Of a DNA stretch of 60,372 nt, positions 42,691 to 58,831 are shown one piece after another. The position numbers were made by a program, and so were the translations under genes. This stretch comes from an uncultured Prevotellaceae bacterium (lineage in GTDB: Bacteria > Bacteroidota > Bacteroidia > Bacteroidales > Muribaculaceae). The stretch is from contig ONLH01000027.1 in assembly GCA_900318645.1 (NCBI GenBank), forward strand, positions 1-60,372. The letters run 5' to 3'. Positions within the stretch are counted from its first letter, which is position 1; every line of letters starts with the position of its first letter. Below the pieces are notes generated by a model, which saw only the letters and a program-made list of their open reading frames with translations, had not been told where the DNA came from and did not search any database.

Positions 42691-43719
42691 TTATCCCATA
42701 ATCTTGTCTATCAGTATTAGTGTCGGTTCAACGGATTGAAGGTCGGTAAGGACATTCGCTTTCTTTCCCTCAATGGCGTTGACAAAGGTGGAGATCTCTT
42801 GGAAGAAGCCTTGGGTGTAAATGGAGTTGCCTGCAATGGTGGGGGAGAAACTGTCGTGACGGTACAGGTATTCGAGCGATTGATGTTGGGGACGGATTTT
42901 TTCCACAGGGATACCTGCGATGACAGGTCGCTTGTGAACAAAACTCAGTTCTTCGCATTGATTTAGATGGTAAGAGCCCGAGTGGGTGTGGACGATGAGT
43001 GATTGCTGAGCGTCTTGCCAACAGTGGCAGATGGACAACTCTATCGTGCCGACAATGTGTTGGTGCCGAAGCATCAGGATATAGGAATGTTCATCAATCT
43101 CTAAATAGGAAACGATTTCGGCCTTACCAAACAGCCACGTTGTCAAGTCCAATGGGTGGATGTACAAGTCGAGCAGGGCATCGCCCTCTGGGTAAGCACC
43201 AGTGAGATAATGCAGGTCATAGTTGAGCGGTCGCTCGCGTTTTAGCCGCTTCTTGAGCAGTTGGACTGCAGGCGCATAACGCTGTTGAAGTCCCACCATC
43301 GCTACCCGTGACCCGAATTCTTGTTGCAACTCGATAAGTTTTTGCAGTTGGGAGATCGATTGGCAAGGCGGTTTCTCTATGAACAGTGATTTGCCGCTTT
43401 GCAACACTTGTGAGGCAATGGAAAAATGGGCATTAGGTGATGCGGCAACAAGAACGCCTTTAATCTCCTTGTCATTGAGGATGTCATCAAGCTTGGTTGT
43501 TGCTTTTATACCCTTAAATTTGCGTTCAATCAGTCTTGCCTTGCGCCCATTGGTCACGCAGATGTATTTCAATGGCACTTGCAGATAGTGAAGCACGGGG
43601 TAGAGGTTGGTCAAGCTATGTTGGCCCATACCGACGAAGGCATATTGGCAATGATAGGTCTCGTTGAGATAGCGCTCGGTGCGCATACGCTTATAGCGGT
43701 TAATGAGTTGCTGTATCAT
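42691..43719 (-). CDS. Gfo/Idh/MocA family oxidoreductase
   Basis: A 342-residue NAD(P)-dependent dehydrogenase. The Rossmann motif is YAFVGMGQHS near residue 29, and the family EKP motif (catalytic Lys) is in LFIEKPPCQS. The C-terminal alpha/beta domain has LLDLYIHPLDL. Family members oxidise or isomerise sugars and inositols. The start at 43719 overlaps the stop of the upstream radical SAM gene by four bases (ATGA), so the two are translationally coupled and probably act in one pathway. The preceding in-frame ATG at 43767 would overlap more and is rejected. Confidence 0.87.
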   Translation of the reverse strand: MIQQLINRYKRMRTERYLNETYHCQYAFVGMGQHSLTNLYPVLHYLQVPLKYICVTNGRKARLIERKFKGIKATTKLDDILNDKEIKGVLVAASPNAHFSIASQVLQSGKSLFIEKPPCQSISQLQKLIELQQEFGSRVAMVGLQQRYAPAVQLLKKRLKRERPLNYDLHYLTGAYPEGDALLDLYIHPLDLTTWLFGKAEIVSYLEIDEHSYILMLRHQHIVGTIELSICHCWQDAQQSLIVHTHSGSYHLNQCEELSFVHKRPVIAGIPVEKIRPQHQSLEYLYRHDSFSPTIAGNSIYTQGFFQEISTFVNAIEGKKANVLTDLQSVEPTLILIDKIMG

Positions 43720-44771
43720 AATGATTGAAGATGTTTGCGATAAGTGAATTTGGGATTGTTGCACCATTGATAAGGGCCATAGAATCGTTCAATTATCTGT
43801 TTGGGTATGAAGCGTTCAAGGTTGCGCATCAGGATGATGTCATACTTGCGATGGAAATTAATCCAGCAACCGTTACACTGCCTGGAGTATCGGCACTGAG
43901 TGAGCGCATTAGCTTGACCGTTGAAAATATCATCCAGCGACTGATTGTGGATATTGCCCAACTTGGCATCAAGATTTTGGCACAAGGGTACATCACCATT
44001 ACTGTGAATGACCAGACTGCTCATGATGCTTTGGCAGCGAAGTCGCAGGTTGCCACTCCGCCATTGATCATAAAGTGCTACAAAGTCATAGTTCTCTTGT
44101 GTCTTGTGGATGTTAGAGGGAATACGGCCCACAAAATCGGTCGCCTCAATCAGCTCGCTCGTGGTGTCAAAGAACGCCATCGTGCCATAGATGCCGATGC
44201 GCACGTCAATGCCGTAATGCAAGGCCACATCGATGACATGCTCCATGTCCTTGAACGAGTTCCACGGCGACAGGCAGAACATGAGCGACAGTGGTACGTC
44301 GTCCTTCAAGGTCTCAACGACCTCAATCACCTTGTCAAATCCGTCGCAGCCGCGCATCCTCTTGTAGGTCTCCTTGTCTCCGTCGAGTGAGACATACAGG
44401 TGGCGCGGTTGGAATTGCCTCACGGCATCGATAACCCGTTGAGGAGCGAGGCCATTAGTCAGCAGCGTGTAATTAAGGTGGTGCTCATGGAACCATTCTA
44501 AGATTTCATTTGCTTGAGGATGCAGGATGAATTCACCGCCTTCGAGCCCGACGGTCGTCCTGCTCGTGATGCAACGGCTCTGCATGATGCGCTTGATGTC
44601 ATCGAGCGACAGGTGCTCACGCTTTTTCTGCCAGATATTGCAGTGCTTGCAATGTGACTGGCATGCCGTTGTGGCATATATCATCAGTTGGCTCAACCGC
44701 TTGTGGCGTGGTCGGGACATATTGTTGACATACAATAGCCCGTTGAATAGGTAATCCGTCAGTTTGTACAT
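43716..44771 (-). CDS. radical SAM protein with SPASM-like C-terminus
   Basis: A 351-residue radical SAM enzyme. The 4Fe-4S motif CQSHCKHC (CxxxCxxC) is near residue 38, with GLEGGEFILHP and LYVSLDGDKETYKRMRG as the SAM and barrel segments. The C-terminal cysteines CQNLDAKLGNIHN, CRYSRQCNGCW resemble a SPASM auxiliary-cluster domain, as in peptide or sugar-modifying enzymes. It is coupled to the oxidoreductase gene downstream and follows a strong hairpin upstream. No precursor peptide gene was found within 200 bases, so a substrate cannot be named. Confidence 0.88.
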   Translation of the reverse strand: MYKLTDYLFNGLLYVNNMSRPRHKRLSQLMIYATTACQSHCKHCNIWQKKREHLSLDDIKRIMQSRCITSRTTVGLEGGEFILHPQANEILEWFHEHHLNYTLLTNGLAPQRVIDAVRQFQPRHLYVSLDGDKETYKRMRGCDGFDKVIEVVETLKDDVPLSLMFCLSPWNSFKDMEHVIDVALHYGIDVRIGIYGTMAFFDTTSELIEATDFVGRIPSNIHKTQENYDFVALYDQWRSGNLRLRCQSIMSSLVIHSNGDVPLCQNLDAKLGNIHNQSLDDIFNGQANALTQCRYSRQCNGCWINFHRKYDIILMRNLERFIPKQIIERFYGPYQWCNNPKFTYRKHLQSL

Positions 44772-44777
44772 TATAAA

Positions 44778-44829
44778 TCCATGATGGTTTGGTTCTCTAC
44801 AAGTGTAGATGCCGCCAGACCATCATGGA
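44778..44829 (-). promoter_or_regulatory. hairpin directly upstream of the radical SAM start
   Basis: TCCATGATGGT (44778-44788) and ACCATCATGGA (44819-44829) form an 11-base perfect stem, extended inward by TGG/CCA-like pairs and an inner CTACA/TGTAG hairpin. On the RNA it ends 7 bases before the ATG at 44771, so it could act as terminator for the upstream gene or as a translation-control element. Confidence 0.6.
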
Positions 44830-44877
44830 CTGCATAGGAAGTGCGATAAAACAGTATTTCGTGCTAATGTGGAGGAT

Positions 44878-45690
44878 TTAACGTCCCAGCAAGATATCTA
44901 TCAAGGTTGTGACATCTGAGATGCTGACTTCACCATCCTCGTTGACATCACCACGCTTGTTCTCCAAAATGCTCTCGTCAAACTTCTGTCCCTTATAGAC
45001 TATTTCACCGCCTTCGACAACATGGCTCAAGCCAAAATAGGTACCGTAACCCGTTGGCAACACCATGAAGAAATCAAGTGTGTAACTTGAAAAAGCATCG
45101 ATGCCCACTCCCTCAATAATGCGGAAATCACCCCCACATAGGCTACCAACATATTGCTTGGCCAGATGAGCGCCAAGTGCTATTGTGTCGGTGTAGCAAT
45201 GCTGATACTGGTCATCATAACCTGATTGGTTCACAAGTTTATCCCAAAAGGCTACGGGATCATTGAAATCGTATAAGATAAACTCCTTGCCTTCACTGAT
45301 GAGGTCATAAATGTCGGGTGAAAAGGAGTTGCCGATAGGACAATCGGGATACATTTTGCCATCTGGCACTATCGCGTATACGATCTTGTCTGCCTCACGC
45401 ATGTAGATAGGCATTGTGTCATTATTGGCGTTAATGGCACCGCCGTGGTACTTGTGCATGGCTTTGTAGGTGAGTCCGTTGATGACGGTGTCGCCCTTGA
45501 ATTCAAGGTTCATATAGACTTTGCCTTTTCCCAATATGGTGTCAGCAGGATAGAAACCATCCTCATTGACATAATAGTAAACCCATTTTACGCCTTCGCG
45601 TACAAAAGGCGTATACATGTACTCGTTTGCCGCAACCTGTGACACTGCCATCAAGGCAAGGGCTACTAGCAGAATGCTTCTTTTCATCAT
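44878..45690 (-). CDS. secreted protein with a single C-terminal dockerin-type repeat
   Basis: A 270-residue exported protein: signal peptide (residues 1-22, ILLVALALMAVSQVAA), a central 220-residue region of unknown fold that is Tyr/Asp-rich (YTPFVREGVKWVYYYVNE), and a final dockerin-type I repeat, GDVNEDGEVSISDVTTLID, with Ca-binding Asp spacing. Such single-repeat tails recur at the ends of secreted proteins in Prevotella- and Muribaculum-like genomes and may serve as an attachment or sorting module. I cannot assign an enzymatic role. A second start at 45687 is equally possible. No promoter is clear. Confidence 0.82.
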   Translation of the reverse strand: MMKRSILLVALALMAVSQVAANEYMYTPFVREGVKWVYYYVNEDGFYPADTILGKGKVYMNLEFKGDTVINGLTYKAMHKYHGGAINANNDTMPIYMREADKIVYAIVPDGKMYPDCPIGNSFSPDIYDLISEGKEFILYDFNDPVAFWDKLVNQSGYDDQYQHCYTDTIALGAHLAKQYVGSLCGGDFRIIEGVGIDAFSSYTLDFFMVLPTGYGTYFGLSHVVEGGEIVYKGQKFDESILENKRGDVNEDGEVSISDVTTLIDILLGR

Positions 45691-45787
45691 AGCAGTTATT
45701 TTTTTAGGTTATTAAAGATGATAATATCGTTCTATAACCTATGATACCATAAGGCGATAAAAGACTGCATCATTTTGCTGATTTTAA

Positions 45788-47458
45788 CTACCAGGTGAAT
45801 CGCAATCCGGCGGGAATTGTGATGGTGAACGGATGCTGTGTGCGGTAGGTTTCAAAGCCGCTGCCGTCAGGGATATAGTACTGTACGCCAGGCTCTGCAA
45901 AGATGCTGATGCTGGGAGTGATATTGTACTGAACACCGATGCCAATGCCGGTTGACCACTGCAGCGGCACATCCAGGTGATGGCTGTCACGCAGTTGTGG
46001 CTGGTTGTTCAATATATACTCTGTCGTGACTGTTGACTTGACTGGAATCTCCAGCGTCACGCCTGCCGAGGTATAGATGCCGACATGTTTGCCGCTCCAA
46101 ATGCGATAAGAGACTTTCAACGGCACGCCCAGGTAATCGATGCGCTGTTTCTCATCGATGCGGTTGATCCCCTCACCCGTTTGGAACAACGAGTTGAGTC
46201 TTGTGTACTGGAGGCCGCTCTCCAAGCCGATTCTCTTGTTGGCTTGATACCTCAACGACAAGGAATAGGTTAGAGGCAGGCTGTGGTGAGTCTTGCGAAC
46301 GATTTGGCCATTGTTGAGCGGCTCGTTGCTCATTGCAATCTGTCGCATGATGCGATCCTCTTCAGACAGTCCACTCGTGATGTCACTCTTTTCCTCAAGA
46401 TAAGCGATATAATCGCTCCAGTTGTCAATCGATAAGGTGGGATCAGGCTCTCCTGGAACAGTTGGCGCAATATAATCGGGTACGACAAAGTTGTGAGTAT
46501 TCATTCGGTCAGCCTCTCGAGATGGTTGGCCAGTATAAGCCAAATCTGCCGACCAGCGCTTGAAAGCGTCTTTCTTTGGCCGGATGGTGGTGCCTTGACG
46601 AACGTCTGCAAAGTGGATGTCACCATTCAGTTTGAGATGAGGAAGAGTGTTTTCAACAGGAACAGTAGTAGTGTCAACCATCTGTCTTGGAACTTCCTCA
46701 TGATGAGCCGTGTCTGTGGTGCTCACATTTGGTTGCTCGTATCTCTCGGGGACAGTAATGGCCATGTTGCGGCTTTCTTTACGTTGCTGACTGGCGGGCT
46801 TAGCCGCTTGTGGAATGTCATCGGTGACTATGGGTTCATTTGTTTCGGCTGTCTTTGGCTGCTTCTCCTCAATTGTTTTGGGCTGGCGCAGGAGTAACAA
46901 TGCCAGGGGCGTGAGCAGCGTAAGCAGCACGATGGCCCAATACTTGGCCAGCGAGTGTTGCAACATCTTCTTGGCTCTTGCCAGTTGTGATGATGAGGAA
47001 TGGGCGGCAATACCCAGGATTTCGCCGATTTCCTTATGAGACATGTCCTGCATGACCGCCATCTTGAACACCTTGCCATAACCGTTTGGCAGTGCGTTCA
47101 CTGCAGCTATGATTTCGGCCATCGTCGGTATGTCGGTAGGCTCCTCTGCAATCCAAGTTTCATCTGGAATGTCATCAACAGGAACAGTGACTAGGGCATG
47201 ATTTCGTTGCTTGTAGCGCAATGCCACATTGGCCGCAATGCTTGACACCCAAGCGTCAAAACGGTTAGGGTTGTGCAGATGATCCAGTTTGGAGAAGGCC
47301 AGCACAAAGGCATCATGGGACAATTCTTCAGCCACGGCACGATTGCCCACAATGTTATAGCATATCCCCAACACCTTGTGGGAATACGCGTTATAGAGCT
47401 TGGCGATAGCCTGTTGGTCACCAGCCAGAGCCGCCCCGATGACATGCTCCATGTCCAT
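45788..47458 (-). CDS. ECF sigma factor fused to TM segment and outer-membrane-type beta-barrel
   Basis: A 556-residue continuous reading frame. Residues about 10-85 are sigma-70 region 2 (AIAKLYNAYSHKVLGICY, AEELSHDAFVLAFSKL); about 105-170 are region 4 (LPNGYGKVFKMAVMQDMS, HKEIGEILGIAAHSSSSQLA). A transmembrane helix follows at about 173-190 (AIVLLTLLTPLALLLL), then a Pro/Thr/Lys-rich linker of about 200 residues, then from about 395 an alternating-hydrophobicity barrel region (YSLSLRYQANKRIGLESGL) that ends in RFTW, an aromatic terminus typical of outer membrane proteins. There is no stop or frameshift. The start at 47458 is chosen because the 18 preceding residues are not sigma-like. I infer a one-chain trans-envelope transcription regulator. 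Confidence 0.82.
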   Translation of the reverse strand: MDMEHVIGAALAGDQQAIAKLYNAYSHKVLGICYNIVGNRAVAEELSHDAFVLAFSKLDHLHNPNRFDAWVSSIAANVALRYKQRNHALVTVPVDDIPDETWIAEEPTDIPTMAEIIAAVNALPNGYGKVFKMAVMQDMSHKEIGEILGIAAHSSSSQLARAKKMLQHSLAKYWAIVLLTLLTPLALLLLRQPKTIEEKQPKTAETNEPIVTDDIPQAAKPASQQRKESRNMAITVPERYEQPNVSTTDTAHHEEVPRQMVDTTTVPVENTLPHLKLNGDIHFADVRQGTTIRPKKDAFKRWSADLAYTGQPSREADRMNTHNFVVPDYIAPTVPGEPDPTLSIDNWSDYIAYLEEKSDITSGLSEEDRIMRQIAMSNEPLNNGQIVRKTHHSLPLTYSLSLRYQANKRIGLESGLQYTRLNSLFQTGEGINRIDEKQRIDYLGVPLKVSYRIWSGKHVGIYTSAGVTLEIPVKSTVTTEYILNNQPQLRDSHHLDVPLQWSTGIGIGVQYNITPSISIFAEPGVQYYIPDGSGFETYRTQHPFTITIPAGLRFTW

Positions 47459-47541
47459 CCAATAAAGTTGTCCTTTATTGTTATGATGCCATATTGGATG
47501 AAAAGACTGCATGGAACCGAATAATTCTTTGTTAAAACTAA

Positions 47542-47604
47542 TTAGCCGTTAACAGATGGATGTCCGCTAACGGCTAATCGTCTAACGTCTAACGTCTAAC
47601 GTCT
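47542..47604. repeat. palindrome plus CTAACGT heptamer repeats
   Basis: TTAGCCGTTA (47542-47551) and TAACGGCTAA (47568-47577) form a 10-base inverted repeat. Then CTAACGT repeats every 7 bases (47567-47604, with one 8-base step). It is another member of the heptamer family and lies between pepO and the sigma-barrel gene. Confidence 0.7.
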
Positions 47605-47607
47605 ATA

Positions 47608-58285: not shown

Positions 58286-58831
58286 TTATTTATTGTCGCT
58301 TGATTTTGTGTCGTTTTCCTCGTTTTTCATGAAGAGTCCCAGCAGCCAGTTGGAGACTATGACGAGTAGGGGAGATATGACTGCACAGAGCAGCATAGCC
58401 TGCGCTGTGTCATAAGTATAGGTCGAATTGATCGTATCCGGGCTCATGCTAAAGCTGACGGCGGCAGGTACTGCAACGGTCGATAGAATTAACGAGCTGC
58501 CGTAAACTCCTATGGCGCGTCCGTTGAAATGTGAGGCATCGGGGCGCTTCTTGGAGAGCAGGTAGATGCCCAAAATGGCAAGTACTACGGCGAGAATGAT
58601 GACGACCATCCAGGACTCTTTCGCCATGGTGGTGATGCTGCCAGCCAGTACCGCGATCGCCGTTAGGCGAGGGACGGTATATAATTCGCCTTTCTCCTGT
58701 AGATGGGAGTTGAAACGGCTGTTGCTGAAGTGGTTGAGTTGCAGCAGGGCGGTGTCCTTGAGTAGCATGCCTATTAAGGTGAGCAACGCTGCGACGCAAA
58801 AGGCGAGGTGAGCAATAAGTGTTGTGTCCAT
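58286..58831 (-). CDS. conserved polytopic membrane protein of unknown function
   Basis: A 181-residue protein with four or five hydrophobic segments (about residues 5-22, 55-65, 72-92, 103-120, 145-165) and a charged C-terminus (NEENDTKSSDNK). I do not recognise the family. The start at 58831 (MDTTLIAHLAF) is chosen since a TATATTTG promoter element lies at 58875-58868. It is on the strand opposite to its neighbours and has no operon partner. Topology suggests an inner-membrane protein. Confidence 0.7.
   Translation of the reverse strand: MDTTLIAHLAFCVAALLTLIGMLLKDTALLQLNHFSNSRFNSHLQEKGELYTVPRLTAIAVLAGSITTMAKESWMVVIILAVVLAILGIYLLSKKRPDASHFNGRAIGVYGSSLILSTVAVPAAVSFSMSPDTINSTYTYDTAQAMLLCAVISPLLVIVSNWLLGLFMKNEENDTKSSDNK

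Follow-up and report, generated by a model that had tools for sequence, protein, structure and literature searches.

A sigma factor joined in one frame to a membrane helix, a disordered tether and a predicted outer membrane barrel in Bacteroidales

The fused gene and its surroundings

The window analyzed in this study comprises 60,372 nucleotides (positions 1 to 60,372 of the forward strand of contig ONLH01000027.1, assembly GCA_900318645.1) of an uncultured Prevotellaceae bacterium, which GTDB places in the lineage Bacteria; Bacteroidota; Bacteroidia; Bacteroidales; Muribaculaceae. One open frame on its minus strand joins a sigma factor to a transmembrane (TM) helix, a disordered tether and a C-terminal barrel domain. 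The coding features and one repeat of the locus are the following:

45788..47458, minus strand: fused sigma-TM-tether-barrel gene, a single open frame of 556 aa
47201..47398, minus strand: sigma-70 region 2, residues 21-86 (Pfam PF04542, Sigma70_r2, E = 2.3e-9)
46961..47116, minus strand: sigma-70 region 4, residues 115-166 (Pfam PF08281, Sigma70_r4_2, E = 2e-10)
46886..46942, minus strand: TM helix, about residues 173-191 (hydropathy, AlphaFold2 model, alignment)
46568..46885, minus strand: disordered tether, residues 192-297 (AlphaFold2 model, alignment)
45791..46567, minus strand: beta-barrel domain, residues 298-556, with a C-terminal Trp (Pfam, AlphaFold2, Foldseek)
46301..46528, minus strand: variable loop between strands 1 and 2, residues 311-386 (model and alignment)
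44878..45690, minus strand: downstream gene of 270 aa, whose product has a signal-peptide-like N-terminus and, at its other end, a weak dockerin-like match (E = 0.0007, below the cut-off)
43716..44771, minus strand: radical SAM/SPASM enzyme of 351 aa, a recurrent downstream partner
42691..43767, minus strand: Gfo/Idh/MocA oxidoreductase, overlapping the radical SAM gene (approximate start)
47542..47577, no strand assigned: 10-bp inverted repeat TTAGCCGTTA...TAACGGCTAA (loop of 16 nt), flanked by the M13 peptidase gene and the predicted promoter

The preliminary description had proposed a single uninterrupted frame with ECF sigma regions 2 and 4, a TM helix and a barrel-like domain ending in an aromatic residue, and this layout stands. 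All three Pfam domains of the protein (region 2, region 4 and OMP_b-brl) exceed their cut-offs, the last with a match over residues 397-522 (E = 4.1e-7; 30.8 bits against a cut-off of 28.7). The NCBIfam sigma70-ECF superfamily profile, at 59.1 bits against a cut-off of 42.9, places the protein among the ECF sigma factors. Region 4 contains the heptapeptide HSSSSQL, which is frequent across the fused family in the alignment. Hydropathy indicates one TM segment, and in all 77 fused open reading frames (five of the 77 loci were fetched twice) it starts at most nine residues past the sigma match.

An AlphaFold2 model, run on a 56-row alignment of relatives, reached a mean pLDDT of 74.5 and a pTM of 0.47 over the whole chain; at this pTM the placement of the domains relative to each other is therefore not predicted. 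In the model, the sigma helices are followed by a single unbroken helix (residues 152-190) that runs from the end of sigma region 4 into the TM segment, and residues 191-297 are disordered. The predicted barrel, with pLDDT values mostly of about 85-95, consists of a strand at about residues 302-310 and strands within residues 387-555 (eight strands by eye count), and ends in the terminal W. Foldseek matched the model to ECF sigma factors and to OmpA-type barrels, namely the OmpA TM domain (TMt 0.60-0.62), Legionella porin III (TMt 0.61) and Ail (TMt 0.49-0.56). Unlike these OmpA-type barrels, the barrel of the window protein shares its chain with a sigma factor. From the topology, the loop 311-386 would face outside.

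The linker was put at 200 residues in the preliminary description. It is in fact a tether of about 106 aa (residues 192-297; 62% P/T/S/E/K/Q/D/N), and the remainder of that stretch belongs to strand 1 and the first loop. Over the 56 aligned rows, the distance from the end of the TM helix to strand 1 is 99-155 aa (median 107), and the loop between strands 1 and 2 measures 21-86 aa. Among 48 diverse rows, mean pairwise identity amounts to 0.13 in the tether and 0.155 in the loop, against 0.36 in the barrel (residues 387-556) and 0.55 in sigma region 4. A constant length combined with a free sequence is what would be expected of a tether that spans the periplasm, although it is no proof of one.

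The fused gene is adjoined in the window by genes for an M13 peptidase, the 270-aa protein, the radical SAM enzyme and the Gfo/Idh oxidoreductase. The 270-aa gene sits between the fused and the radical SAM genes in some genomes of the genus and is absent from others. A radical SAM/SPASM gene with an overlapping Gfo/Idh/MocA gene directly follows the fused gene in other genera and in family f53; the window has one extra gene before this pair, and genome G377 of family f101 has one small gene there. Alternative genes after the fused gene encode methyltransferases, CotH proteins, a glycosyltransferase pair or an MBOAT acyltransferase. At locus L264 (5236-7908), the fused gene is followed by genes for a family 2 glycosyltransferase and a PMT_2-type protein. 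We read these downstream enzymes as modifying the cell surface. On the other side of the fused gene, the inverted repeat at 47542..47577 was not listed by the terminator scan, and a short tandem repeat of the GTTAGAC/GTCTAAC type lies at 47578-47607, in the stretch that separates the M13 peptidase gene from the fused gene; it also occurs at locus L038 and, in altered form, at L039.

Fused family members and two-gene relatives

A match to any part of the protein at E 1e-15 is present in 72 of the 101 genomes of the genus. Among the matches listed there, 15 besides the window are full length with 82-91% identity and 25 are full length with 30-36% identity; the copy in G052 is partial, and those in G064 and G081 are interrupted. 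Eighteen relatives come from uncultured Prevotellaceae, Muribaculaceae and Bacteroidales, three of the records mentioning sheep or roe deer. Further fused genes were found elsewhere in the family and in at least three other families of the order (f5, f53 and f101), in a search that scored the best three candidates per genome. Family f53 (248 genomes) yielded at least 70 matches at E < 1e-109; of the 70 listed, 68 span the model from position 20 or earlier to position 547 or later, and two carry an internal stop. The Bacteroides-like genus g78 has a full-length fused match in 8 of its 95 genomes, and no full-length fused match is among those listed for family f96 (40 genomes). The fused family is thus widespread in the order, which is Bacteroidales going by the named relatives, and the two halves are not separate genes in every genome.

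Substitutions among six of seven chosen orthologs (the seventh was left out for an indel) fall at third codon positions with a share of 0.72 in the sigma part, 0.51 in the TM helix, 0.60 in the tether and 0.70 in the barrel, and this bias runs in one frame over all four parts. A frame error at the TM junction is rejected because of this bias and the full-length, one-frame homologs in the genus, the family and other families; none was seen.

Interrupted copies of the fused gene occur at loci L025, L026, L128 and L130, where the interruption falls between the halves, and on contigs G734:C10 and G794:C105. Their break points differ, and they represent either decay or draft-assembly errors. A phage origin of the gene was also considered and rejected: a tblastn search against phages returned 26 records, none of which covers 80% of the query, and the five phage matches listed cover the sigma part alone.

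Two-gene pairs, in which a separate sigma gene is accompanied by a TM/tether/barrel gene, are also found in the same genus and in others. The split sigma gene encodes 163-222 aa, depending on the start chosen, and the second gene overlaps it or starts within about 65 nt downstream; at one locus (L145) the sigma gene alone was seen. The product of the second gene begins with 42-68 residues that precede the TM helix, the tether and the same barrel. In genus g78, one split pair adjoins a gene whose product presumably resembles NigD. In the order of their parts, the split pairs fit the Das/Dma pairs of Bacteroides thetaiotaomicron. Das1/Dma1 and Das2/Dma2 share with the window protein the sigma factor, TM helix, disordered tether and C-terminal barrel, whereas they are encoded by two genes and the Dma protein carries an N-terminal anti-sigma domain.

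A tree of 111 sigma domains separates 63 fused-family rows (59 fused and four interrupted copies) from 48 split rows by one branch (UFBoot 100, SH-aLRT 99). When three ECF sigma factors from the source genome are added as outgroups, the fused clade (SH-aLRT 99) lies nested among the split sequences, with a weakly supported root (47). The trees omit 11 near-identical orthologs or duplicate loci, and the 111-row tree also omits the three outgroups and two very long rows. The fusion therefore seems, from these trees, to have a single origin among two-gene pairs of the Das/Dma type.

The N-terminal domain of the split proteins is missing from the fused ones. A profile of this anti-sigma domain detects all 45 split proteins (44 of 45 when held out) and none of the 77 fused open reading frames, the window included, below E 1e-3; the best fused value is E 0.71. 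The interrupted loci L025, L026, L128 and L130, two duplicates and L149 are omitted from this comparison. An anti-sigma gene acting in trans was sought beside the fused genes and rejected, with no match at E 0.01 among 4362 stop-to-stop frames of at least 40 aa at the fused loci. Since the domain is absent from both the reading frames and their flanks, the fused form is not a sigma factor and an anti-sigma factor in one chain; as far as the sequences indicate, the covalent link occupies the former place of the anti-sigma domain.

A different arrangement was observed in the Bacteroides-like genome G886 (locus L256, 1483-2757), where the sigma frame continues without a stop into an anti-sigma-like segment and a TM helix and subsequently enters a masked stretch. 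It perhaps represents another type of fusion, one in which the anti-sigma domain is retained.

A predicted promoter before and after the fused gene

Three promoter-like sites were predicted at the locus:

47482..47511, minus strand: ECF-type promoter before the fused gene, TGCAGTCTTT-13-CATCATA (score 22.8), overlapping the 574-aa reading
45740..45769, minus strand: second promoter copy, before the 270-aa downstream gene (score 21.5)
44805..44834, minus strand: third, weak promoter-like site, ahead of the radical SAM gene (score 9.9)

The score of the third site is no better than that of chance sites elsewhere in the window. The first site bears on the start of the fused gene, which could also be read from an ATG at 47512 as a 574-aa protein. 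A block just 5' of the 556-aa start is common to the orthologs, while the DNA further upstream diverges. We prefer the 556-aa start, without regarding it as proven, because the extra codons overlap the conserved predicted promoter and the changes among orthologs there look non-coding by eye.

To count the site across the family, 123 loci were reduced to 75 by removing close orthologs, upstream regions more than 80% alike and short ones. A TGCAGTCTTT-N12-CATCTAT-like site is found upstream in 58 of the 75 diverse loci, against one of 75 in reversed sequence, by a matrix trained on the same upstream set on which it is counted; the remaining 17 have no site above the threshold, which is the level passed by 1% of shuffles. 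The spacer measures 11-13 nt, and 12 nt in 46 of the 58 sites. The predicted promoter begins about 50 nt ahead of the fused gene and its end lies at a median of 21 nt before the approximate start.

The site recurs after the gene. In this independent count, 49 of 74 loci have a site in a 160-nt region around the fused gene's stop and 25 have none, compared with 18 of 1480 shuffles and one of 74 inside the gene. A tally by the next gene covers 70 loci, with groups formed by similarity and named from scanned members or by eye: the site precedes all 16 radical SAM genes, 9 of 15 methyltransferase genes, 6 of 8 CotH genes, all seven genes of a small lipoprotein-like family and none of the four MBOAT genes, the others forming groups of one or two. 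Before split sigma genes, a site is present in 10 of 50 cases (two of the 10 being one gene fetched twice), and seven of these are of the TGCAGTATTTTT form. This related but different TGCAGTATTTTT site lies upstream of the split sigma genes of L123, L131, L133, L140, L142, L148 and L150.

Searches beyond the locus returned few sites. A strict pattern has 31 sites in 20 chosen genomes, against eight for its backward control; control matches occur in seven of the 20 genomes, the source genome among them, and three genomes lack strict sites. Eighteen of the 31 strict sites are at the fused locus and 13 elsewhere, one of these without an assigned locus. The off-locus sites look like chance matches, 11 of the 12 readable ones lying inside open reading frames of at least 150 aa. 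One off-locus match, at L304 (G084:C3:133847-133872), lies 15 nt before an open reading frame of 253 aa and is a possible distant target. The strict pattern misses the second site of the window and has no match in G553, G884 and G862 despite their fused genes. When up to three mismatches are allowed, the window contains 11 matches against 6.8 expected, and eight of 100 shuffles reach 11; only the window sites with no or one mismatch are trusted for this reason. The matrix also gives a score of 13.9 at 58358-58385, inside an open reading frame.

Conservation of the predicted promoter together with the gene makes it probable that the sigma part is a functional sigma factor. It probably controls itself and its neighbors, because the predicted promoter precedes the fused gene and recurs after its stop.

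A possible route from the outer membrane to RNA polymerase

The preliminary description knew of no example of such a fusion, a statement that fails since Dma3 of B. thetaiotaomicron (locus bt_2778-2779) is reported (PMC13088901) as a Dma-family protein with its own N-terminal sigma domain and no neighboring ECF21 sigma factor. The same paper describes Dma proteins as having domains that reach from the outer membrane into the cytosol, and a chain with this domain order, as in the window protein, would span both membranes as first suggested. It is further stated that deletion of dma3 left the hypervesiculation of dma1 and dma2 mutants unchanged and that no function of Dma3 is known (PMC13088901). 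A 2023 paper (PMC10434189) names BT2778 as a sigma-70 family factor in the iron-dependent stimulon. We call a protein Dma3-like if it is built like a Dma protein and bears the sigma domain at the N-terminus of the same chain; in comparison with the published description, the window protein has this organization. The Dma3 locus consists of two genes; three of four fused loci of g78 (L261, L262 and L263) have one following gene, a methyltransferase gene in the one scanned.

In IutY of Pseudomonas putida, the C-terminal part is FecR-like and acts together with a separate outer membrane receptor. Unlike IutY, the window protein carries a barrel in its own chain and has no FecR match, this family not being among its eight Pfam matches up to E 1; it is accordingly not of the IutY type. 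What the two share is a sigma factor fused to a membrane-bound part, which in IutY (ECF243) is an anti-sigma factor, and a review (PMC8999054) reports that IutY is freed by Prc and RseP. The same review describes ECF52, the group of SCO4117 from Streptomyces coelicolor, as having C-terminal TM extensions and a proline-rich extracytoplasmic region; SCO4117 ends in a carbohydrate-binding domain, whereas the window protein ends in a predicted outer membrane barrel.

We consider it fairly probable that the window protein is a sigma factor of the Dma3-like, dual-membrane-spanning type and serves as a one-component switch linking the outer membrane to RNA polymerase. The barrel would lie in the outer membrane and the sigma domain on the cytoplasmic side, where fixation against the inner membrane, in place of anti-sigma binding, would hold it off. 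If the barrel or its outer loops undergo a change, the chain would become accessible to an initial protease and afterwards to an RseP-like site-2 protease. The released sigma factor would activate its own gene, giving positive feedback, and the adjacent genes; in the window, these would be the gene of the 270-aa secreted-type protein and possibly also the radical SAM/SPASM and Gfo/Idh genes. Against the switch speak the lack of effect of the dma3 deletion on hypervesiculation, the upstream and downstream regions without a site above the threshold, the four MBOAT genes without a site and the weak site ahead of the radical SAM gene of the window. The source genome encodes an M50 peptidase of 477 aa, which we read as RseP-like; it lends no specific support to this mechanism, because all 14 control genomes have a site-2 protease as well.

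A fuller version, in which the sigma factor has no anti-sigma factor at all, is silenced only by inner membrane fixation on a barrel-ended tether, connects the cell surface with RNA polymerase through a single protein, uses its own promoter type, governs little beyond its own locus and has repeatedly exchanged its enzyme cargo (as read from the variety of neighbors, not from tree counts), is offered tentatively, at slightly short of an even chance.

The protein might instead be a sentinel of outer membrane assembly that senses nothing outside and is cut to free the sigma factor when its barrel fails to insert. Unfolded outer membrane proteins set off the sigma-E cascade in Escherichia coli, and both a barrel with a C-terminal aromatic residue on a sigma chain and an M50 protease in the genome would suit such a role. 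The scanned neighbors, however, are enzymes or secreted proteins with none named as a chaperone or BAM part, and the long, variable first loop is of a more ligand-facing kind, so that we hold this explanation to be unlikely.

The sigma domain could also be active while tethered, without cleavage, in the manner of the membrane-bound transcription factors ToxR and CadC. The lack of an anti-sigma domain covering the sigma surfaces and the conservation of the promoter with the gene agree with this. It is nevertheless quite improbable, as the last helix of sigma region 4 continues into the TM helix in the model and at most nine residues separate the sigma match from the TM segment in 77 of 77 reading frames, so that a tethered sigma factor would have little space for RNA polymerase and DNA; moreover, the sole tested fused membrane sigma factor named in the review PMC8999054 is freed by proteolysis.

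That the chain is always cut and the fusion merely couples the expression of two halves acting apart is very improbable: a few copies are indeed interrupted between the halves (L025, L026, L128 and L130), but these are few and broken at differing places, the tether has kept its length and not its sequence, and the fusion persists through one large clade. An artefact joining two genes, conceivable in a draft assembly of 75 contigs, is refuted by the recurrence of the same frame in many assemblies at 82-91% and about 30-36% identity and in other families.

The fusion of a sigma factor to a barrel is already described for Dma3, and we place it in a widespread family. New in this study are the apparent single origin, the loss of the anti-sigma domain, the predicted promoter and the kept tether length, the novelty of the loss and the promoter being relative to the open-licence literature, as a 2024 PNAS paper on Dma1 (cited in PMC12596196) may say more about Dma3. 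If the Dma3-like switch is true, it would be about the simplest route from the outer membrane to transcription, with sensor, tether and sigma factor in one chain; a sigma factor may, as the missing anti-sigma domain suggests, be regulated by tethering alone.
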